DNA of 64,000 nucleotides from an uncultured Treponema sp. GTDB lineage: Bacteria > Spirochaetota > Spirochaetia > Treponematales > Treponemataceae. Of the stretch, positions 7,224 to 51,944 are shown one piece after another. The translations under genes and the position numbers were made by a program. Each line of letters opens with the position of its first letter. Position 1 is the first letter of the stretch. A model generated the notes under the pieces. The model was not told the DNA's origin. It searched no databases and saw only the letters and a program-made list of their open reading frames with translations. The stretch spans positions 1 through 64,000 of the forward strand of contig CAMNDY010000006.1 in the NCBI GenBank assembly GCA_946535985.1, read 5' to 3'.

Positions 7224-7773
7224 TTGCGTGCGGTTTGGTTGAAGTTTCCAAAATGCACGTAAATTCTGGTGTCCACAGGGCTCCAGTTCTTCTTGATTAC
7301 GTGCGATCTAAAGAACATTCCTAAAATGCACGTAAAATCTTGTTTCCCCGGGATTCCAGCCCTCTTTGATTACGTGCATACTAAAGGACTTTCTTAAAAC
7401 ACACGTAATCTCCAGTGCCCCTCGGACATATGGTGCCTCCTGGTTACGTGCATTCTGAAGAAACTTTCCAGAATACACGTAAACTTCTGTAGCACCTGAC
7501 ACAAAGTTCTTCCTGGTTACGTGCATCCAGGACAATGTTCTAAAAACACACGTAATTCTCCAAACTCCCGGGTTTATATCTCCTTGTGTTTACGTGTGTT
7601 TTGAAGAAACTCTCCAGCATACACGTAACCTCTGGAGCTCCTGAGCTCGCAGTTCCTTTTGGTTACGTGTATTCTGGAAGAATTTCTCAAAATACACGCA
7701 ACCACAAGAGTTTCAGCTCTTGCAGCTCCTTTTGTTTACGTGTATCTCAAAGAACTTTGCCAGAATGCACGTA
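7224..7773. repeat. Array of eight 39-bp palindromes at 73-bp pitch
   Basis: Near-palindromes start at 7224, 7297, 7370, 7444, 7517, 7590, 7663 and 7736, so the intervals are 73, 73, 74, 73, 73, 73 and 73 bp. Consensus arms are TTACGTGYATTCTG and CARAATRCACGTAA around a centre like AAGAAACTTTC. The 34-35-bp linkers are more variable but share a pyrimidine-rich end before each palindrome. A 73-bp period is not a multiple of three, so the array is not coding, and short ORFs across it are artefacts. The array occupies the 5' region of the minus-strand nuclease-like gene; the nearest palindrome is 36 bp from its start codon. Confidence 0.9.
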
Positions 7774-41944: not shown

Positions 41945-41976
41945 AAAAAAGCTCACTTTCTTAAGAGAAAGTGAGC
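41945..41976 (-). terminator. Rho-independent terminator of the minus-strand gene at 41987
   Basis: GCTCACTTTCTTAAGAGAAAGTGAGC hairpin core (41951-41976: 10-11-bp stem) with six As at its left, read as a T tract on the minus strand. Confidence 0.88.
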
Positions 41977-41986
41977 GCAACGAATA

Positions 41987-42544
41987 TTAGAACCCTGCAA
42001 TTGTATAATAAACGTCTTTACCGTTTTCCTGATGGATTTTTATTCCCTTTGCTTCCAGACGTTCGTCAACATTTTTCCAGCCTTTTGGCATTGTTGATTT
42101 TAAATTATCTTTTCCTTTATCAAGGGTATCTGCTTCTTTTTTTGTGATAAGAATTCCCTTTGCTTTTTTTTGCAGAAGTTTAAGGATTTTATTTTCATCA
42201 TAATCAGGTGTGAGGTTATATAAGTCTTCTTTTAACAAAACTCTTGGATAAATATGTTCGGCATGTAATTTGTCTTTGAGAGCTCCTGCTATATGCTTCA
42301 GATTATCTTTTGTTTTTAAATAATTCCTTAAATTATCAAAATCTGCTTTATTTTCCTTATAAGCTTTTTCCGAAACTCTGACTTTTACAAAATTGTCGCT
42401 TGTTTTTTCCAGACAACCATAAATTTCATAATCAAGATATTTTTCTCTGTGAGTACCTCTTTCTATGCCAACTAGAATATTGTGGAGCATCGTACTAATT
42501 TGTTCCAACGATTCCTTTGAGTTTTCTTTTGCTGTTTCAGGCAT
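41987..42544 (-). CDS. Hypothetical protein
   Basis: 185 residues, soluble, charged, mostly helical by composition. Runs such as FVKVRVSEKAYKENKADFDNLR and a final KIHQENGKDVYYTIAGF are not recognised. AAGGAG site before the ATG and a strong terminator after the stop. Lies between the Rpn gene and the zinc-ribbon cluster, in the same accessory stretch. Confidence 0.65.
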   Translation of the reverse strand: MPETAKENSKESLEQISTMLHNILVGIERGTHREKYLDYEIYGCLEKTSDNFVKVRVSEKAYKENKADFDNLRNYLKTKDNLKHIAGALKDKLHAEHIYPRVLLKEDLYNLTPDYDENKILKLLQKKAKGILITKKEADTLDKGKDNLKSTMPKGWKNVDERLEAKGIKIHQENGKDVYYTIAGF

Positions 42545-42677: not shown

Positions 42678-44714
42678 TTAATTAAACTTATATGCAATGT
42701 TTGGGATCATATTAGCATCAATAGAAACCTCAATAGTGACATTAGTAATTGTATCATCTGTCTGATCAGATAAAATGTTTTCCTTATAAAATAGAGTTTT
42801 TATAGAGTTTTCTGTTATATCATTTAATTCAAGTATTCCCGGAAATTCGACAATCTCAAACGGGGTATATTTTTCTTTAATTTCTTCTACAGTAAAATCA
42901 ATAGTTTTTTTTGTTGGAATTGTGGTGTCTTTGAGAAGTAATGTGTTATATGTTCCATCAGAACCTTTAATCACTATGGAGCTTGGACTAACATCTAGCA
43001 GCAATACCTCTTTGACATCACCCGTTAATACTCCATACTGAAGTTTTAGACCTTCAGTAATAGCCTCAGTTGGAACTTTTTTACATTGTATATAATTATT
43101 TTTGAATTTTATATCTTTTATAGAAACAGATAAATCTGTACATAGTATTATTTCGTCTATTGAATCAAAATACTCATTTATCGAGCAGATTTCACCTTCA
43201 TTTCCTATAATTTTTTTTGTTTTAAGGTAATTCTCTAAGGTTTCGCAAATATTAAAAGTTGGTAATTTTATTGAATCAGTAGATCTTACTTCATAGACTC
43301 CATCCCCAATTCCAAGTACTGAAATTTCCAGGCTGTCCCCAATAATTACTGCAACTAATACAGAACGTTCATAATCTTGATTATCTTTGTAATAGACTCC
43401 TATTGCAGCAGCCGTTGAATAAGTTATCGTTCTTAAGTTCTTTACTTGTGATGATTTTGCTCTTAATTCTTTTATGTCACTTATTCCATAAGACTCAGGA
43501 ATTGCGATAACTTTTATGTTGTTATCTCCTTCTTCAAATACTTTATTGCAGGAAAAAAAACCTTTATAAACATTCTTGGTTGCTAAATCATCTTTTGTGA
43601 GTGAACTGAAATTGCCGGTTAATACTGCTTCAAGATTTTCTTGTGTTTTTAATAACCAGGTGCGTTCAAGCTTGGTTTTTGGTTCTGTACAACTGTCAAG
43701 AATTTCTTTTGCATTCGAAAGATATGATTTATCTTTGCTGTATTCAGCAAGCTTAATGTTAAAATCAACTTTACGGCATTTGAGCAAAATTTCATCAGCC
43801 CAGAGTTTGTCTGCTGTTGAAATGTATTCTTCAACCTGTGAATAATTATTTGCTTGAGTTGCAATATCTATTAAGGTAAGATAAGAACATAATATATCTG
43901 CATGAATGCTGTTAATTACATTTTTAGCTTTCTGTGGATCTGTATGTGAAAGTGCATACAGATAATCTGCTAAAATTTCCTCGTTGCTCGAATATTTCAT
44001 ACAGAGTGGCTCAAGCAGCTTTATAGCCTCGTTATATTTGAGTTCATCATAAAGCACCGATTTGGCCTTTTCAAAATTGATTCTATCAAAGTTCCCAATT
44101 TGATTTGTGTTTTTGGAATTAATTTGAGTTTTTACAATATTTTCTAACTCCAATGCACGTGTCATTGTAAGCCCAAGCTGCTGCTGTAAAGCTCCAAGCT
44201 CCTGCCGTTCTCCCATATCTATTTTGCCGTCTTCGAGTACGCGCTTTACAGCCTGTTTATAGACTTCTTCTTTTTGATTTCCAGCATTGTCTCGGCATGA
44301 AATACATTTTCCTGCATTTGAATCATAACAGTCAGTGCATGTAAACTGTCCACAAACAGGACAATTGTATCCATTGATTTTCAGAACATTTTTGCCACAC
44401 ACATGGCAGGTTGCTGTCTTTTTAGTTTCATCCTCGTTCTTAATAATTGTGGCATTTCCAGAAACATGTGTTTCATCTTTTGAACCAATTACATCACCTG
44501 CAATTACGTTCTTGTCTCCCATAGAAATACCTGCAGATTTAGCAGCTCCATTTCCACCAAAACTGAATCCGCATTCACCACAGAATTTCATTGTAAGAGG
44601 CCAGTCTTTGTTACAATGCGGACAGTGATTCATTGGTTCTGGCAGTTTTGTTCCACAGTTTCCACAGAATTTCATTCCCTCTGGATTTTCTTCACCACAA
44701 TTTGGACATTTCAT
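42678..44714 (-). CDS. Zinc-ribbon protein with degenerate partial Hsp70 C-terminus
   Basis: 678 residues from ATG 44714 (AGGAG upstream). Residues 1-52 hold two zinc ribbons (CPNCGEENPEGMKFCGNCG, CPHCNKDWPLTMKFCGECG). Next is a short beta segment (DKNVIAGDVIGS), then a RING/treble-clef-like cysteine cluster near 95-140. A helical stretch (GKIDMGERQELGALQQQLGL) and TPR-like repeats follow to ~390. From ~398 the sequence follows DnaK: VIAIPESYG for the VPAYF strand, TYSTAAAIGVYY for NEPTAAALAYG, then IIGDSLEISVLGI in place of DLGGGTFDIS. Residues 560 on (YGVLTGDVKEVLLLDVSP, TTIPTKK) match the Hsp70 substrate-binding start closely. The N-terminal DLGTT ATP loop is absent. Confidence 0.75.
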   Translation of the reverse strand: MKCPNCGEENPEGMKFCGNCGTKLPEPMNHCPHCNKDWPLTMKFCGECGFSFGGNGAAKSAGISMGDKNVIAGDVIGSKDETHVSGNATIIKNEDETKKTATCHVCGKNVLKINGYNCPVCGQFTCTDCYDSNAGKCISCRDNAGNQKEEVYKQAVKRVLEDGKIDMGERQELGALQQQLGLTMTRALELENIVKTQINSKNTNQIGNFDRINFEKAKSVLYDELKYNEAIKLLEPLCMKYSSNEEILADYLYALSHTDPQKAKNVINSIHADILCSYLTLIDIATQANNYSQVEEYISTADKLWADEILLKCRKVDFNIKLAEYSKDKSYLSNAKEILDSCTEPKTKLERTWLLKTQENLEAVLTGNFSSLTKDDLATKNVYKGFFSCNKVFEEGDNNIKVIAIPESYGISDIKELRAKSSQVKNLRTITYSTAAAIGVYYKDNQDYERSVLVAVIIGDSLEISVLGIGDGVYEVRSTDSIKLPTFNICETLENYLKTKKIIGNEGEICSINEYFDSIDEIILCTDLSVSIKDIKFKNNYIQCKKVPTEAITEGLKLQYGVLTGDVKEVLLLDVSPSSIVIKGSDGTYNTLLLKDTTIPTKKTIDFTVEEIKEKYTPFEIVEFPGILELNDITENSIKTLFYKENILSDQTDDTITNVTIEVSIDANMIPNIAYKFN
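44481..44714 (-). repeat. Direct repeat: zinc-ribbon coding segment, copy 1
   Basis: The first 234 bp of this gene match 46975-47208 with about seven differences, all synonymous: the first 78 residues of both proteins are identical. Confidence 0.9.
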
Positions 44715-44823: not shown

Positions 44824-47208
44824 TTAATAGTGAAACATTAATGCTTTTCTTGCTACGTTTTCATATCCATGTTCTTCAGCTTTCTTATACCATTTTGTTG
44901 CCTCTTTGTAGCTTTTCTCTACACCATCCCCATTGCGATACATGCGTATTAGCTCTATTAAAGCTTTTTTATCTCCTTGTTCTGCTTTCTCAATCAATTC
45001 TTTTAAAACATCGTTTTTATTTGATTTTACAGTATTGCTATTGTTCTGAGTAACATCTTTTGGGGTGTTGTTGTTATTTGTTAAATTGTATTGTGCAGAT
45101 GTTAAATAATGTTGAGCGATTCCGTTTCCTTGCTCTGCAGCCTTTTTTAACCATTTGATAGCTTTACTGATATCCTGTATTACACCTAGCCCTTGGTAAT
45201 ACATATTTCCTAAATGGCATTGTGCAGTAGCAAATCCTTGTTCAGCAGCCTTTGTGTACCATTCTACAGCCTTGCTGTAATCCTGTGTTACACCATTACC
45301 AAATTGATACATATATCCTAAAGTATCCTGTGCATCTGCATCTCCTTGTTCAGCTGCTTTAGAATACCATCTTATTGCTTTAGAATACCATTCATTTGAT
45401 TTTGCAGAATCTTTCTTAAGTCCAAAACCTCCTTCTTTGTAAAGAGATCCTAAATGACTGGCGTAATTAGCTGCCATATCACCATTTGGTTGATTTTCAA
45501 AAGCTTTTGTGTACCATTCTACAGCCTTACTGTAATCCTGTGCTACACCATCACCAATTTTGTACATATGTCCCAAAATACTCGGTGCTTTCGCATCTCC
45601 TTGTTCAGCTATTTTAGAATACCATCTTATTGCTTTAGAATACCATTCATTTGATTTTGCAGAATCTTTTTTAAGTCCAAAACCTCCTTCGTTGTAAATA
45701 GCTCCTAGATGGGCTGCACAAGCAGCAGCCATACCTTCATCTGGTTTATTTTCCAAGGCCTTTATATACCATTTTTCTGCTTTTCCATAATTTCTTTTTA
45801 CATTTTGCCCATATCGATACCATTCTCCAAGATTTACCGAAGCTTCAACATCACCCTGTTCTGCTTTTTTTATCAACTGGTTTATAACGACGCTATTATC
45901 CGCAGTTACAGTATTGCTATTATTCTGAGTACCCTCTTTAGTTGTGTTACTGGTATTAGCCTGATTGTTTTGCGCATATGTTAAATTGCTTTTAGCAGTT
46001 TCATTTCCTTGTATTGCAGCTTTATTAAACATTTTTGCAGCGTCATTAATAATTTTCCAGTAAAATCCATTTTGTCTGCAATAATCCTTGGTATAATTTA
46101 CAGTAGGAGAATCAGATTCGTCTTCCATAATAAACTTTGCTTTTTCCTGGTAACTTTTTTCAAGCGGAGTTTCTGCTGTCCCTAAATCTTGTGCTAACTC
46201 CAGAGCATCCTGCAAGAAGGTTTCTACATGAAATTCTTTATACAATCCATATTTAAAGAAAGCCTGAGAACATTTTACCAGAACATTTTCCGGCCATAGC
46301 ATAACCAGTTTATCCAGACGTCGTTCTGCTTCGTCATATTCTTTCTTTCTAAGTGCAATATCAAAAATAGTAAGACATGCACTCAGATTATCAAAAGAAA
46401 GCTGTTTTATTTCATTTTCTGCCTGCGCTTCATCTATATCGGCAAGAATAGGAAAATATAGATTTAAAATATTTTCATCTGTTTTGTGCATTGCATAAAT
46501 AGGTTTAAGCAGATTTATTGCTTCCTGTGATTTGCCTTCATCATAATACAGAGTTTGGGCCTTATTTATATTGATATTTTCAACTGTTGTATATTTTGCA
46601 TTATTGGATGAAGAAGACTCCTTTGTTATGGAAGCTTCAATTTCTTTTATCTTATCATCAGAAAGTCCAAGTTTGTGCTGAAGATTTATAAGTTCACGAC
46701 GTTCAGAAAGGTCAATTCGTTTGTCTGAATAAAAATTTTGAAATGTTTCTTTGTATTGATTTATTTTGCTGCTTTCTGATTGATTTATGCAGAATTTACA
46801 GCGTCCGTTCTGAATATCATAACAACTTGCACAAGTGAATTGTCCACATACAGGGCAGTCAAAGCCATCAATCCGCATTACGATACGGCCACAAACATGG
46901 CACTTTGCTGTTTTTTTTGTCTCATCCTCATTTTTAATAATTGTGGCATTTCCAGCTATATGAGTCTCTTCATTCGAACCAATTACATCACCTGCAATTA
47001 CATTCTTGTCTCCCATAGAAATACCTGCCGATTTAGCAGCTCCATTTCCACCAAAACTGAATCCGCATTCACCGCAGAATTTCATTGTAAGAGGCCAGTC
47101 TTTGTTACAATGCGGACAATGATTCATCGGTTCTGGTAGTTTTGTTCCACAGTTTCCGCAGAATTTCATTCCCTCTGGATTTTCTTCACCACAATTTGGA
47201 CATTTCAT
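44824..47208 (-). CDS. Zinc-ribbon protein with Sel1-like repeats
   Basis: 794 residues. The first 78 residues are identical to those of the downstream paralogue, then a related RING-like cysteine cluster (CHVCGRIVMRIDGFDCPVCG) and a helical stretch (KRIDLSERRELINLQHKLGL). TPR-like helices follow to ~390. From ~440 to the end there are several Sel1-type repeats (AEQGDADAQDTLGYMYQFGNG, A-x2-W-Y-x-KAAEQG pattern), interrupted by Asn/Thr-rich linkers. Two repeats share an exact internal duplication. Sel1 arrays are protein-interaction scaffolds. Divergently oriented to the caspase-like/SPFH genes, 173 bp away. Confidence 0.88.
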   Translation of the reverse strand: MKCPNCGEENPEGMKFCGNCGTKLPEPMNHCPHCNKDWPLTMKFCGECGFSFGGNGAAKSAGISMGDKNVIAGDVIGSNEETHIAGNATIIKNEDETKKTAKCHVCGRIVMRIDGFDCPVCGQFTCASCYDIQNGRCKFCINQSESSKINQYKETFQNFYSDKRIDLSERRELINLQHKLGLSDDKIKEIEASITKESSSSNNAKYTTVENININKAQTLYYDEGKSQEAINLLKPIYAMHKTDENILNLYFPILADIDEAQAENEIKQLSFDNLSACLTIFDIALRKKEYDEAERRLDKLVMLWPENVLVKCSQAFFKYGLYKEFHVETFLQDALELAQDLGTAETPLEKSYQEKAKFIMEDESDSPTVNYTKDYCRQNGFYWKIINDAAKMFNKAAIQGNETAKSNLTYAQNNQANTSNTTKEGTQNNSNTVTADNSVVINQLIKKAEQGDVEASVNLGEWYRYGQNVKRNYGKAEKWYIKALENKPDEGMAAACAAHLGAIYNEGGFGLKKDSAKSNEWYSKAIRWYSKIAEQGDAKAPSILGHMYKIGDGVAQDYSKAVEWYTKAFENQPNGDMAANYASHLGSLYKEGGFGLKKDSAKSNEWYSKAIRWYSKAAEQGDADAQDTLGYMYQFGNGVTQDYSKAVEWYTKAAEQGFATAQCHLGNMYYQGLGVIQDISKAIKWLKKAAEQGNGIAQHYLTSAQYNLTNNNNTPKDVTQNNSNTVKSNKNDVLKELIEKAEQGDKKALIELIRMYRNGDGVEKSYKEATKWYKKAEEHGYENVARKALMFHY
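46975..47208 (-). repeat. Direct repeat: zinc-ribbon coding segment, copy 2
   Basis: Pairs with 44481-44714 (about 97% identical, differences synonymous). Confidence 0.9.
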
Positions 47209-47381
47209 ATTTACAGGCTCCTGTTTATCATTCTCTTATTTTTTTTAATAGTCTATTTAATCAATTATAAATCCACATTTTCAATTTAACTATGTAGTTG
47301 CACTCAAAAAATATTGAGTGGCATTCAATGTTTTTATGAAATTTTGTATGAGATAATATTTTTATATAAATGGAGATTTTT
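47209..47381. promoter_or_regulatory. Divergent promoter region of the zinc-ribbon cluster
   Basis: AT-rich 173 bp between divergent genes. Holds CACTCAAAAAATATTGAGTG (47302-47321), an inverted repeat with 8-bp arms, and GAGATAATATTTTTATATAA before the rightward gene. A shared operator controlling both directions is plausible. Confidence 0.5.
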
Positions 47382-47711
47382 ATGGAAAATCTGACTGGAA
47401 AAATTGAATTTATGCTTTTTGCGGAAGGTACTAAAAGTGAATCTTTGCAGCCTTTTCTTATAGATAAGAATGGAAAAAAAATACGTATTTACAAAAAAAA
47501 CGACAATCCATTTATGAATAATTATTTTACTGCTTTTGAAGGAAAGTCGGTTTGTATTTCTGGAGAGTATTCTAATGAAATATTTATTGTTGACTCAATA
47601 ACAGATGATATAGTTGGCTCGGCAATTGATGAACCACAAACAGATGAAGTAGAGGCAGTTGATTCTGAAATAGTGTCTTCATCGGATCCTGAAAATTCTT
47701 CAGATGAATAA
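47382..47711 (+). CDS. Small hypothetical protein, first gene of the rightward zinc-ribbon operon
   Basis: 109 residues from ATG 47382 (GGAG upstream). The N-terminal ~70 residues look like a small beta-barrel (LTGKIEFMLFAEGTKSES, KIRIYKKNDNPF, GKSVCISGEYSNEIFIV), OB-fold-like in strand pattern; the tail is acidic and Ser-rich. No known family. The next gene starts 25 bp downstream. Confidence 0.65.
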   Translation: MENLTGKIEFMLFAEGTKSESLQPFLIDKNGKKIRIYKKNDNPFMNNYFTAFEGKSVCISGEYSNEIFIVDSITDDIVGSAIDEPQTDEVEAVDSEIVSSSDPENSSDE

Positions 47712-47736: not shown

Positions 47737-49230
47737 ATGAACTTTTGTGAAGACTGTGGTGCTCCTCTTTCCCCAGGAGTAAGATTTTGTGAAAATTGCG
47801 GGGCAAAAATTTCTGATGCTTCGTTAACTGCTGCTGGGAAAAATGATGTAGTTGCAGAGAATCTTGAAGGCGGAGTTTTATACACGAACTTGCAGTTGCT
47901 TTCTTCTGCTCTTGGAACATCGACAGAAACTATTCTTATGGTAATAAACAATTTTATTGATTTAAGAAAAGCCGACGGAATTGGGTATGAACTTTTTGAT
48001 ATTTCTGGCAAAGTTTCTGACAATAATTCTTTGCAGGAGCATATTAATCTGGTAAAGTCTGCTGTTTCTCAGGGGCAGCGTTATCTATTTATCCTGGGTG
48101 ATAATAATATTATTCCAACCTGCGTTTGGGAAAATATGGCCAGTGACAGGGAGTCCGATTCTGATGTGTCATCAGATCTTCCATTCGCAACGCTGGATAC
48201 TGACTCACCTTTCAATGGTAAGATATTTAATTTTGATAATTTCCTTTATGTGGGTCGCTTACCTACGGCAGTAATCATGAACTATATGGAAAATATTGCA
48301 GCCTATAAAATGCCTTCTTCCATAAGTTCATTTGCTTTGTCTGCTATGGTCTGGACAATGGAAACAATGGATCTTTATGCTAATGTTCGTAATGATTCTG
48401 ATATTGTGCATGGTCCGGAAATGGAAACTTCTCCACTTTTTGAACTTGGACAGGAACTGTCCTGCATTCCTTCAAATACAAATCTTCTCCTATTTAATCT
48501 ACACGGAAGCAATCAAACTGAATTCTGGTATGGTCAGGAAGAATCTAATTATCCAGAGGCGATGTCGCATGATTCTTTTAATCATCTGACAGAACCCTAT
48601 TTCCTTGCTGTGGAAGCTTGTTACGGAGCAAGATATGAAAATCTTCCCGTTTCGGAAAGTATACTTCTTTCGGCCTTGAACGGAAAATGCCTTTCATTTC
48701 TGGGCTCATCAAGAATTGCTTTTGGAAGACCTATGCCGGAAGGTTGTTGTGCAGATGTAATTTGCGGTGAACACCTTGTAAATCTTTTGCATGGAATGAG
48801 AGCAGGACAGGCATTTAATCTTGCCCGAAAAAAATTAATGGAAGACTCAAGTCCTGAAGAAATTAAGACACTTGCGGAGTTTTCTTTGTATGGAGATCCA
48901 AGTCTTTCAATTACTCAAAATACAGAAAAATCATTACCTGTTCAAAACAGAAAACGTGTTACAGGATTAGTTGGAACTCTGCCTGATGTTCGAAGGGCAG
49001 TCAGGTTAGAACTTGTAAATGTTGAAGCAAAAATTGCAGATGTCGCAGCAAATTTTATAAAAACATACCCATGGATGGATGGTATAAAACCAAAGTTCTA
49101 CAAGAATGTTGCCTCTGCATGCAGCGATATAAATGCAGTTTTTTCTAAGCAGACTAAACTGGGGCCACAAATTGTTTCTGTCACAATCAGCAAAGACGGA
49201 AATATTCAAAAATTTATGGAAACAAAATAA
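47737..49230 (+). CDS. Zinc-ribbon, caspase-fold (C25/gingipain-like) protease
   Basis: 497 residues from ATG 47737 (AGGGAG upstream). Starts with a zinc ribbon FCEDCGAPLSPGVRFCENCG. The main domain has the clan CD layout: YLFILGDNNIIP, the DLPFATLD and LYVGRLPTA region as in C25 peptidases, the catalytic His in LLLFNLHGSNQ near residue 255, and the catalytic Cys in LAVEACYGARYE near 292. No signal peptide, unlike secreted gingipains, so it acts in the cytosol like CHAT-type effectors. A helical C-terminus follows the domain. Target unknown; its zinc ribbon ties it to the neighbouring zinc-ribbon proteins. Confidence 0.8.
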   Translation: MNFCEDCGAPLSPGVRFCENCGAKISDASLTAAGKNDVVAENLEGGVLYTNLQLLSSALGTSTETILMVINNFIDLRKADGIGYELFDISGKVSDNNSLQEHINLVKSAVSQGQRYLFILGDNNIIPTCVWENMASDRESDSDVSSDLPFATLDTDSPFNGKIFNFDNFLYVGRLPTAVIMNYMENIAAYKMPSSISSFALSAMVWTMETMDLYANVRNDSDIVHGPEMETSPLFELGQELSCIPSNTNLLLFNLHGSNQTEFWYGQEESNYPEAMSHDSFNHLTEPYFLAVEACYGARYENLPVSESILLSALNGKCLSFLGSSRIAFGRPMPEGCCADVICGEHLVNLLHGMRAGQAFNLARKKLMEDSSPEEIKTLAEFSLYGDPSLSITQNTEKSLPVQNRKRVTGLVGTLPDVRRAVRLELVNVEAKIADVAANFIKTYPWMDGIKPKFYKNVASACSDINAVFSKQTKLGPQIVSVTISKDGNIQKFMETK

Positions 49231-49257: not shown

Positions 49258-51318
49258 ATGACATGTCCAAAATGCGGTAAAGAAATTCCAGAAGGAAAAA
49301 AGTTTTGTGGAAATTGCGGTACAAAGATTGATACCTCTACCACAACAGATAGCAATATTTTAATTTGTGCTTCATGCGGTGCACCATTAACTCCGGGTAA
49401 AAAATTCTGCGGAAAATGTGGAGCTCCAGTTACAAATGCTTCTAATAATGCTTCCAGCCAGGCAGAAGTTGCTCTTCATGCTGGTTTTGCACATTGGAAT
49501 ATTCTTCCAGGTCAGCTTGCGGCAAAATTTGATGAAACCGATTTGGAAGGCTACAAGGATATAAAAGGACTTGTAATTCAAGATGGAATAAAAGCTCTCT
49601 TCTTTGCAGATGGAAAACTTGCAGGTGAACTACAGGGTGGTAAGTATCCGTTTAAAGATATGGGTATTCAAACAGAAGGAGCTGTTCGAGGTTTCTTCAG
49701 ACGACTTGCAAACTTCTTTAAGGGTAAAACTAGTAGTATTCTTGATTCCGCCGCTTCTGTCATTGTTGTACTGCTCCGGGATGCAGAATTCCCGCTTATC
49801 TTTATGGAAAATGATATTCCAACTGCAGGTCTAAGGACTTCGGTTGCCATGCATGGAACTGCAAAGATTACAAATGTTCTGGAATTCTATCATAATCAGT
49901 TGTTGGACCGTAAAATGGTAACTTTCCAGGATTTTGCTACTGCACTTGAACCTATGGTTCATACTCTTTTGAGCGAAAAACTTGCTGGAATTGATGCTGA
50001 TTCTGTTACAACAGATATAACTCTGCGTTCGACAATTACAGAAGCAATGAAAGAGGGAATTTCTTCTGTATATTCATACATTTCGTTTGAAAAAATTCTT
50101 AGGCTTACTGCAACAAACACAGAACTTGAAGCTATCAGACAGATGCGAGAAGAACTGTATCTTAGCGAAAAGGAACTGATTGAACTTAGTCGACGTAATA
50201 ATTTTCTTAACCGTTTGAATGATGAAAAGAACCAGCAGCTTTTACAGGAAGCACAGTCTGCTGCTGATTTTGCTGCAGCTATGCAGAAGATTGACCAGCA
50301 GAATGAACTTACAGAAGATGAAAAAGCAAAATTTGCCGATATGCTTTACTGGCAGCGAAAGCTTAGGGAAGCAACATCTCGAGATGAAGGCGAAGCTGCT
50401 CTTAATAAACTGGAACAAAACGCTCTTCTTCGTGAGGAAGAAATTAGTGTTCTTAAGGCAGATATTGAACAACGTGCAAAATTAAAGAATCTTACAGATG
50501 GTCAGGCTCTTGCTATGCTCACCTTGCAGAATGAAATTGCACTTGATGAGCAGAAATTACAGTGGGAACTTCAGATTGGTAATAAACGCTTTGAAAATCA
50601 AATGGATCGACAGCGTAAGCAGGATGAATATGCCGATGAACGTCGCCGTCGTGAAATGGATTTGGACAAAGAAGAGCAGATGAACCAGCTAGATCTTTTG
50701 CGACAGGCACAGGCTCTTCGTGCAGAGCGTGAAGATGCAGAGCACAGACGTAAGATAGAGGAAGAAAAACTTCACATCGATGCAGAGCTGGAAAAAGAAA
50801 AACTGCAATCAAGTACAGAACTTGAGAAAAATCGTATTTATGCTAACATGACTGCAGAACAGATTATGGCTGCAAATCCAAATATCAGTGAACATGCAGC
50901 TGCCGCTCTTGCAGAAAAGTTTAAAGGTGAAAATGCCGCAGCTTATGTTGAAATGGCAAATAAGCATAGCGAAGATATTGAACGCATCATGAGTCAGAAT
51001 GCCGAACAGCAGAATCAGACAATGCAGCAGATGATGCAGATGATGGGACAGATGTTTGGAGCTCAGAATGCACGAAAGGATGCAGAATTAGAAGCCGTTC
51101 GCAAGGATGCAGATCATCATCAGGACAGAATGGAAAAAATCATTACATCAACTTCTAATGCAGCTTATGGTGCCGCTGGAAAAATTTATGCTGCAAAACC
51201 AGAAAGGCCGGAGCAGCCACGACAAAACAGCAGAAAAGATATAACACAATGCCCATCGTGTGGCGCTCCAATTGAAGAGGGCGAAAGCTTCTGTGGTGAA
51301 TGTGGGGCAGCACTTTAA
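49258..51318 (+). CDS. SPFH-domain coiled-coil protein with zinc ribbons at both ends
   Basis: 686 residues. Two N-terminal zinc ribbons (CPKCGKEIPEGKKFCGNCG, CASCGAPLTPGKKFCGKCG), then an SPFH/band-7-like domain (~80-300, including VVLLRDAEFPLIF and ISFEKILRL). A very long charged coiled coil follows (~300-560, e.g. RRRREMDLDKEEQMNQLDLL), then a Met/Gln-rich stretch QQMMQMMGQMFG. The protein ends with a last zinc ribbon CPSCGAPIEEGESFCGECG. SPFH proteins build large membrane or cytosolic cages, so it is a likely scaffold for the protease. The stop overlaps the regulator start (TAATG). Confidence 0.82.
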   Translation: MTCPKCGKEIPEGKKFCGNCGTKIDTSTTTDSNILICASCGAPLTPGKKFCGKCGAPVTNASNNASSQAEVALHAGFAHWNILPGQLAAKFDETDLEGYKDIKGLVIQDGIKALFFADGKLAGELQGGKYPFKDMGIQTEGAVRGFFRRLANFFKGKTSSILDSAASVIVVLLRDAEFPLIFMENDIPTAGLRTSVAMHGTAKITNVLEFYHNQLLDRKMVTFQDFATALEPMVHTLLSEKLAGIDADSVTTDITLRSTITEAMKEGISSVYSYISFEKILRLTATNTELEAIRQMREELYLSEKELIELSRRNNFLNRLNDEKNQQLLQEAQSAADFAAAMQKIDQQNELTEDEKAKFADMLYWQRKLREATSRDEGEAALNKLEQNALLREEEISVLKADIEQRAKLKNLTDGQALAMLTLQNEIALDEQKLQWELQIGNKRFENQMDRQRKQDEYADERRRREMDLDKEEQMNQLDLLRQAQALRAEREDAEHRRKIEEEKLHIDAELEKEKLQSSTELEKNRIYANMTAEQIMAANPNISEHAAAALAEKFKGENAAAYVEMANKHSEDIERIMSQNAEQQNQTMQQMMQMMGQMFGAQNARKDAELEAVRKDADHHQDRMEKIITSTSNAAYGAAGKIYAAKPERPEQPRQNSRKDITQCPSCGAPIEEGESFCGECGAAL

Positions 51319-51944
51319 TGCAAACTACAATTGATTTGCATCTGATTACAACTAATGTAATGGAAGGCACAGGTTTTAAAATTTTCCTCGAACAGAATAG
51401 GCCTGACTACAACGTATCATTAATGATATTACCTATGAATAGTTCTTTGGGAAATCTGAAACTTTCAAAGTTAAAAGAGAACTCTGTTATTTTTATTGAT
51501 ACAGATTCTTTCGAAAATGAAAACCTGCTGTCCTTCCTGAAGCAAATCATGTTTACGTATAAGTGTAAATGTATTTTACATTCAAAACTTTCTACACCCG
51601 GACTTTTAATGAAGGCAAGAGAACTTTTTGTTGATGGATATATCATAAAAAGTTCACCTATCTCTTGTATTCTTAATTGTCTGGATGTAATTAAGTTAGG
51701 CGGTACATATTATGATTCCAGGTTTTATGATTTATTAAAATCTGTAATGATTTTTGAAAAAGACTTATCATTAACCGAGAGAAAACTTCTGCATGAGGTT
51801 CTTTTGTTCAGTAATCGAACAATAAAAGATTTGGCAGGCGTTCTGAATATTTCTAAACACACTGTAGAAGTTCATCTCTCGAATCTTTATAAAAAAGCAC
51901 ATGTTAATGGCTACACCGAACTTGTGTCCTGTTTTTCACTTTGA
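51318..51944 (+). CDS. LuxR-type regulator with a degenerate receiver
   Basis: 208 residues; ATG 51318 overlaps the SPFH stop. The N-terminal ~130 residues have receiver length, but the acidic pocket normally read as DD is TT (LHLITTN), while the Lys (YIIKSSP) and a possible Asp (FIDTD) remain. The C-terminal HTH is LuxR/NarL-like: LSLTERKLLHEV, TIKDLAGVLNISKHTVEVHL. Probably phosphorylation-independent. Its operon position suggests it controls the zinc-ribbon cluster. Confidence 0.85.
   Translation: MQTTIDLHLITTNVMEGTGFKIFLEQNRPDYNVSLMILPMNSSLGNLKLSKLKENSVIFIDTDSFENENLLSFLKQIMFTYKCKCILHSKLSTPGLLMKARELFVDGYIIKSSPISCILNCLDVIKLGGTYYDSRFYDLLKSVMIFEKDLSLTERKLLHEVLLFSNRTIKDLAGVLNISKHTVEVHLSNLYKKAHVNGYTELVSCFSL

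Follow-up and report, generated by a model that had tools for sequence, protein, structure and literature searches.

What remains of a chaperone when an Hsp70 is shortened, stripped of its ATPase residues and fused behind a zinc-ribbon protein, and what might such a remnant be used for? The question is raised by a gene in a 64,000-nucleotide stretch (the window) of contig CAMNDY010000006.1, from an uncultured Treponema sp. (GCA_946535985.1). An earlier note, made from the sequence by eye, had described positions 42678-44714 as a truncated, degenerate Hsp70 fused to zinc ribbons and TPRs, and had proposed an Hsp70 profile search and a structure prediction as checks. The reading frame stands as described: the gene starts with an ATG at 44714, preceded by AGGAG, stops at 42678 and encodes 678 amino acids (P0001). 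The features of P0001 and of its neighbors are collected in Table 1.

Table 1. Features of the P0001 locus, in window coordinates; residue numbers are those of P0001.
Feature	Position	Strand	Remark
Terminator-like hairpin, 11-pair stem followed by a T run	41951..41976	-	Closes the P0002-P0001-P0006 run
P0006, 185-aa protein	41987..42544	-	Same transcription direction as P0001
P0001, 678-aa zinc-ribbon adaptor with truncated, predicted ATPase-dead Hsp70 C-terminus	42678..44714	-	
P0001 SBD-beta, full length, residues 575-674	42693..42992	-	No alpha-helical lid after it
P0001 IIA C-terminal helix and interdomain linker VLLLD, residues 546-574	42993..43079	-	46.5 bits over 546-609
P0001 strongly reduced, diverged stretch, residues 481-545	43080..43274	-	Stands for most of subdomain IIB and the adenosine motif
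P0001 Hsp70 nucleotide-binding domain remnant, mostly lobe II, residues 403-480	43275..43508	-	
P0001 helical, TPR-like repeat region, residues 145-380	43575..44282	-	Common to P0002 and other family members
P0001 eight-cysteine cluster, residues 103-140	44295..44408	-	Cross-brace/treble-clef-like zinc domain
P0001 conserved GDKNVIAGDVIG...SGNATIIKNEDETKK motif, residues 62-98	44421..44531	-	
P0001 5' segment	44394..44727	-	92% DNA-identical to the P0002 5' segment
P0001 double zinc ribbon, residues 1-49	44568..44714	-	Pfam DZR 5.6e-12
P0002, sibling adaptor, same N-terminal module, Sel1-repeat C-terminus	44824..47208	-	Sel1 5e-57
P0002 matching homogenized 5' segment	46888..47222	-	
113-aa ORF	47370..47711	+	Homologues in 7 other loci (tblastn), beside a caspase-like or SPFH-like gene
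P0003, zinc ribbon and caspase-like Peptidase_C25	47737..49230	+	Pfam C25 4e-9, above cut-off
P0004, zinc ribbons at both ends, SPFH-like domain, coiled coil	49258..51318	+	
P0005, LuxR-type regulator	51300..51944	+	GerE 1.9e-7

To establish what the C-terminus is, we compared P0001 with family models and with individual DnaK proteins. Pfam HSP70 matched it in two stretches at an E value of 5.4e-16 and 58.4 bits, above the cut-off of 20.6, with the best stretch pairing residues 548-674 with model positions 360-482; the proposed fusion of Hsp70 homology to zinc ribbons was borne out. The Hsp70-like segment as a whole spans residues 403-674. Among NCBIfam models, DnaK (62.4 bits, against 32 bits for HscA) was the nearest, at a score below the DnaK equivalog cut-off of TIGR02350 (822.55 bits). 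A phmmer search of the PDB reached DnaK at 5e-15 with the whole protein and at 2.6e-16 with its C-terminal part, and in PHROGs P0001 matched the DnaK-like phrog_22485. A profile built from the DnaKs of relatives aligned two blocks, 426-480 and 546-609, and residues 547-610 are 48% identical to the organism's own DnaK. By these profile and alignment statistics the Hsp70 identity of the C-terminus is firm and lies far beyond chance, and they identify its ~280 residues as a reduced Hsp70 of the DnaK type. A chimera formed during assembly with a dnaK contig is ruled out, as no DnaK found exceeds ~50% identity to the fused part.

We next asked which parts of DnaK had been lost and which had been kept. 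In an alignment with the DnaKs of relatives and of viral contigs, 275 columns were at least 95% conserved; P0001 places a residue in 165 of these, and 57 are identical, giving a background retention of 35%. Retention is uneven along the protein, with 4/4 conserved positions in the interdomain linker, 12/25 in SBD-beta strands 1-3 and 7/16 in the IIA C-terminal helix, compared with 3/25 in the region 139-166. None of the 25 conserved SBD-alpha columns could be aligned, as P0001 ends after SBD-beta. No P0001 residue aligns with D8 or K70 of DnaK, and the N-terminal ATPase part is missing, including the DLGTT loop that the earlier note had reported absent. Y432, V456 and S461 stand in place of catalytic E171, D194 and T199, the VGG adenosine motif is gone, and most of subdomains IB and IIB is missing. 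Because D8 and K70 have no counterpart, the three catalytic residues are replaced and the VGG motif is lost, ATP binding by P0001 is predicted to be very unlikely, and the loss that had been proposed is well supported by these residues. Lacking both the ATP site and the lid, P0001 is, as judged from its sequence, not a working, ATP-driven Hsp70 chaperone.

The individual motifs pointed out in the earlier note were also recovered: the VPAYF strand corresponds to IPESY (405-409 region), NEPTAAAL to TYSTAAAI (431-438), the degenerate DLGGGTFD to VIIGDSLE (456-463) and LLLDVTP to LLLDVSP (571-577). It erred in letting the homology end where the substrate-binding domain begins; SBD-beta actually runs to residue ~674, and the lid alone is missing from this domain. 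In the substrate-binding domain of DnaK, I401, F426, V436, I438 and I472 contribute to the peptide pocket, and M404 and A429 to the arch over it. The equivalents of I401 (I582) and F426 (F607) are identical in P0001, those of I438 (F619) and I472 (V659) are conservatively altered, and V436 is replaced by T617; in the arch, M404 has become S585 and A429 has become E610. The client-binding or regulatory role that had been suggested therefore stays putative: it fits the interdomain linker VLLLD, which is intact and identical (570-574), and the complete SBD-beta, but the pocket is only partly kept.

Eight DnaK residues are listed as contacts of the J-domain: R167, E206, D211, E217, Q378, L391, P419 and D477 (PMC8215388). 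Six are kept in P0001 (R428, a D in GDG, E475, Q559, L572 and P600), and two, E206 (G468) and D477 (S664), are lost. Against the 35% background this retention has a P value of about 0.02, rising to ~0.05 when D211, which aligns loosely, is omitted, so that it is weakly significant and, having been looked for after the fact, suggestive. It bears on one possible role, in which the remnant would sequester DnaJ-type co-chaperones or bind DnaK and thereby tune heat-shock signaling, with the protease described below lying downstream or being unrelated. The equivalents of R167, Q378, L391, P419 and E217 persist where the ATP residues do not, and Ssz1 offers the precedent of a non-hydrolyzing Hsp70 that works with a J-protein (PMC7083937). 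However, the two lost residues are contacts that position the J-domain, and the neighboring genes examined include no dnaJ, grpE or dnaK, the association being instead with C25 and SPFH-like genes. We therefore regard regulation of the DnaK machine as improbable.

Structure prediction gave a compatible picture. With 15 DnaK homologues as the alignment, AlphaFold2 produced a model of low confidence (pLDDT 58, pTM 0.48) for which DnaKs ranked first among known structures (Foldseek E value of 1.8e-13; VIA-align Z score of 14.7 for 7ko2). Without an alignment, the prediction reached a pLDDT of 30 and no confident model. The unrelated fold that would have spoken against the earlier note did not appear, and the predicted fold is consistent with Hsp70 but is no proof of it. 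As the DnaK alignment partly imposed a DnaK-like model, the sequence statistics carry the Hsp70 claim.

We then turned to the N-terminal part. The first ~380 residues of P0001 form a conserved adaptor made of zinc ribbons, a GDKNVIAGDV motif, an eight-cysteine cluster and helical repeats. P0001 and its sibling P0002 are 50% identical over residues 1-376, and further copies of the module lie elsewhere in the same genome. The core GDKNVIAGDVIG...GNATII and eight invariant cysteines are conserved across the family: G66, K68-V70, A72-D74, G77, G86-T89, D95 and T97 are invariant in 8/8 members, as are all eight cysteines, spaced C-x2-C-x11-C-x2-C-x4-C-x2-C-x7-C-x2-C. Profile searches of the PDB with the module returned zinc-ribbon and weak treble-clef matches and nothing else; the cysteine domain matched FYVE and PKC-C1 zinc domains weakly and nothing more strongly. 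The TPRs of the earlier note fared less well, as no Pfam TPR model matches P0001 even at an E value of ≤5, and only the shared region of P0002 gave marginal matches (TPR_14, E value of 2e-4, residues 283-311; TPR_19, E value of 0.1). We also considered whether GDKNVIAGDV might be an amyloid signaling motif shared with an effector and rejected this reading because nothing like it follows the zinc ribbon in the aligned C25 homologues.

The adaptor profile found members in 30/200 genomes of the genus at an E value of ≤1e-10 (some through the zinc ribbons only), in 17/274 genomes of the taxonomic family at ≤1e-30 and in 9/393 genomes of the phylum at ≤1e-15. Among 34 adaptor-related proteins, Pfam identified C-terminal tails of the beta-helix (10), FGE-sulfatase (7), Sel1 (5) and LRR_5 (2) types, along with RHS/MORN repeats, one ribosomal L7/L12 C-terminal domain and one HSP70, the last in P0001 alone. 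The conserved adaptor thus carries any of several interchangeable C-terminal modules, of which the Hsp70 part is one, a feature that the earlier note had missed together with the multigene locus and its caspase-like protease. Several tails stand out individually. The L7/L12 domain (Pfam 8e-19), the second case of a housekeeping domain serving as a tail, belongs to a same-family adaptor at L086:5838-7169; the adaptors at L108:4926-7211 and L106:451-2331 have long RHS/MORN-like repeat tails and adjoin proteins with long EEKARREA-type repeats. Within the Sel1 tail of P0002, window positions 45241-45773 hold a direct repeat of ~279 nt (85%), a sign of recent expansion.

The Hsp70-fused form itself had no orthologue in 196 genomes of the genus and 294 of the order, where the window's own gene was the only one found at an E value of ≤1e-13. 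A GTDB contig scan for relatives of the Hsp70 part recovered normal DnaK only, and viral contigs, phages and plasmids yielded no fused relative. A captured piece of dnaK that is drifting without a function of its own would explain this restriction to a single genome among those searched as well as the strong degeneracy of the tail. Such decay would not be expected to leave the frame open across all ~280 codons, retention as uneven as that between the linker, SBD-beta and IIA helix on one side and the 139-166 region on the other, or an intact gene run with a ribosome site and a terminator, and we consider a decaying fusion rather unlikely.

How the tails could be exchanged is suggested by the 5' ends of the genes. 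The DNA of P0001 and P0002 is ~97% identical over the first ~240 nt and ~45% identical in the rest of the genes, and identity drops sharply upstream of the ATG. Tandem adaptors in L086, L043 and L094 repeat this pattern of alike 5' ends and divergent tails. Gene conversion or recombination at the adaptor 5' ends is the simplest reading, and it would allow tails to change while the adaptor stays fixed.

To place the adaptors in their genomic context, we examined the surrounding genes and their co-occurrence. P0002, P0001 and P0006 are transcribed in the same direction, and a strong terminator-like hairpin follows the run. On the other side lies the protease gene P0003, whose presumed dyad of H255 (the His of NLHGS) and C294 (the Cys of EACYGA) is invariant in 10/10 homologues, followed by P0004; Band_7/SPFH models match 2/13 P0004 homologues (best 2.8e-5) and not P0004 itself. 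Among the comparison loci, nine have a C25 homologue by blastp, and roughly twelve have SPFH-like ones. C25 occurs in 12/196 genomes of the genus, and 11 of these 12 carry the adaptor family (Fisher p of about 2e-9); with strong adaptor hits only, the count is 10/12 (p of about 1e-11). Neighborhood and co-occurrence thus place the adaptor genes in one locus with two further zinc-ribbon proteins, the caspase-like protease and the SPFH-like protein. The locus recurs in a related genome as L092, with the same upstream genes and homologues of P0006, the SPFH-like protein, C25 and the LuxR regulator (44% identical to P0005), and its adaptor bears a different tail. Transposase-like genes, IS66-like by eye, are inserted beside that adaptor (L092:3840-6287).

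Two small proteins complete the locus. The 113-aa ORF has no family match and is probably an unannotated locus component. P0006 has no Pfam or NCBIfam family above cut-off; in L092 a relative adjoins the adaptor, and L086 has a weak relative. No established PADLOC defense model was matched; there was only a 17-bit PDC-S48 hit, and other PADLOC and PHROGs matches were weak and driven by zinc ribbons or repeats. Elsewhere in the window, an imperfect palindrome (7583-7708) and two dispersed inverted pairs (8693-8739/39128-39174 and 7803-7869/40841-40906), 78-91% identical, look like a small intergenic repeat family.

For the ligand, complex formation, protease activation and biological role of the P0001 system, we infer the following. 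Our best explanation, which we hold tentatively and at somewhat less than even odds, is that P0001 carries an ATP-independent pseudo-Hsp70 recognition module on an adaptor that feeds a caspase-like protease. The pseudo-Hsp70 would have a low, ATP-independent affinity for something that normal DnaK also encounters, the candidates being an exposed hydrophobic peptide, a J-domain protein or both. Ssz1, which binds peptide although it is lidless and non-hydrolyzing, is a precedent (PMC7083937), and CoCoNuT provides degenerate Hsp70 units within a conflict system (PMC11090510). Binding would unite adaptor and protease at an SPFH membrane scaffold through their shared zinc ribbons, the C25 protease would act after assembly with the adaptor, and by exchanging tails at the homogenized 5' end the locus could alter its sensing. 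The arch changes M404S and A429E and the pocket change V436T count against this explanation, as do the missing Band_7 match in P0004 and the lack of an Hsp70-fused orthologue. A broader formulation, possible but doubtful, is an NLR-like surveillance system in which a 5'-recombined adaptor with exchangeable tails would pass its signal to a caspase-like protease at an SPFH scaffold, the ATP-dead Hsp70 serving as sensor or decoy.

The nature of the tails also bears on the main rival, an integrated decoy. Here the Hsp70 remnant would be bait that mimics DnaK, and a phage or competitor factor attacking or hijacking DnaK would trigger the adaptor and the protease. A fixed adaptor with exchanged tails fits such a design, as does the second housekeeping domain on the L086 adaptor, and the conserved surface (linker, IIA end and start of SBD-beta) is what DnaK partners contact. 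Most other tails, however, are repeats or FGE-sulfatase domains that resemble direct recognition domains, no known DnaK-targeting factor is tied to P0001, and the PADLOC result gives the decoy no established defense model; we judge it unlikely. The L7/L12 tail would also suit an RNA- or ribosome-directed Hsp70-like module, a role suggested for the degenerate Hsp70 NBD/SBD units in CoCoNuT, a conflict system in which CnuD fusions may bind RNA (PMC11090510). This reading is very improbable: the six window proteins scanned contain no McrB GTPase (Pfam, PADLOC) and no nuclease or other RNA domain (Pfam), and CnuD retains Walker-like NBD motifs that are missing in P0001.

Taken together, these data suggest a modular sensing system that is apparently undescribed; in open-licence papers we found no description of an adaptor/C25/SPFH-like locus. 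If the recognition-module explanation is true, an Hsp70 can be cut back to the linker and the peptide-binding half and put to a new, ATP-free use in recognition, and bacteria combine adaptors and caspase-like proteins into systems that exchange their sensor tails much as NLR proteins do. The gene set of the locus is well defined: adaptors, the C25 protease, the SPFH-like protein, two small proteins and the LuxR regulator.

Compared with known systems, P0001 aligns with DnaK in the lobe-II strands, the IIA C-terminal helix, the VLLLD linker and SBD-beta, but it differs in the missing DLGTT, K70, lid and most of IB/IIB, in the replacement of E171/D194/T199 and in its position behind a zinc-ribbon adaptor. 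Like P0001, Ssz1 of the yeast ribosome-associated complex is a lidless Hsp70 with a complete SBD-beta; it does not hydrolyze ATP, acts as a regulatory partner and still binds peptide at low affinity (PMC7083937). In contrast to P0001, Ssz1 keeps an ATP-binding nucleotide-binding domain and is eukaryotic, bound to Zuo1 and without zinc ribbons or a protease. The CnuD and CnuCD proteins of CoCoNuT also fuse a degenerate Hsp70 NBD/SBD into a multigene prokaryotic conflict system (PMC11090510), but CnuD keeps Walker B-like motifs, is predicted to still bind ATP/ADP and is fused to McrC or McrB and HEAT repeats, with no such adaptor or C25 protease. The VMAP, iSTAND and EACC1-caspase systems of Kaur et al. 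combine constant components with varied C-terminal domains, including FGE-sulfatase and superstructure repeats, and often have caspase-like peptidases (PMC7159879). Here, by contrast, a zinc-ribbon adaptor is the element that stays constant, and the caspase-like protein, of the C25 type, is encoded by a gene of its own. MoxR, vWA, GTPase and EACC1 had no Pfam match in the six window proteins scanned, although GAP1/EACC1 models may be absent from Pfam; because none of the core genes was found among the scanned proteins, we do not file the adaptor locus with these systems. Finally, YdjI of Bacillus subtilis lies in a phage-shock operon (pspA-ydjGHI) with PspA and the membrane proteins YdjG/H, an operon that contains neither a caspase-like nor an adaptor gene, but YdjI shares with the P0004 homologues an SPFH domain, a low-complexity region and a C-terminal zinc finger (PMC8581546).
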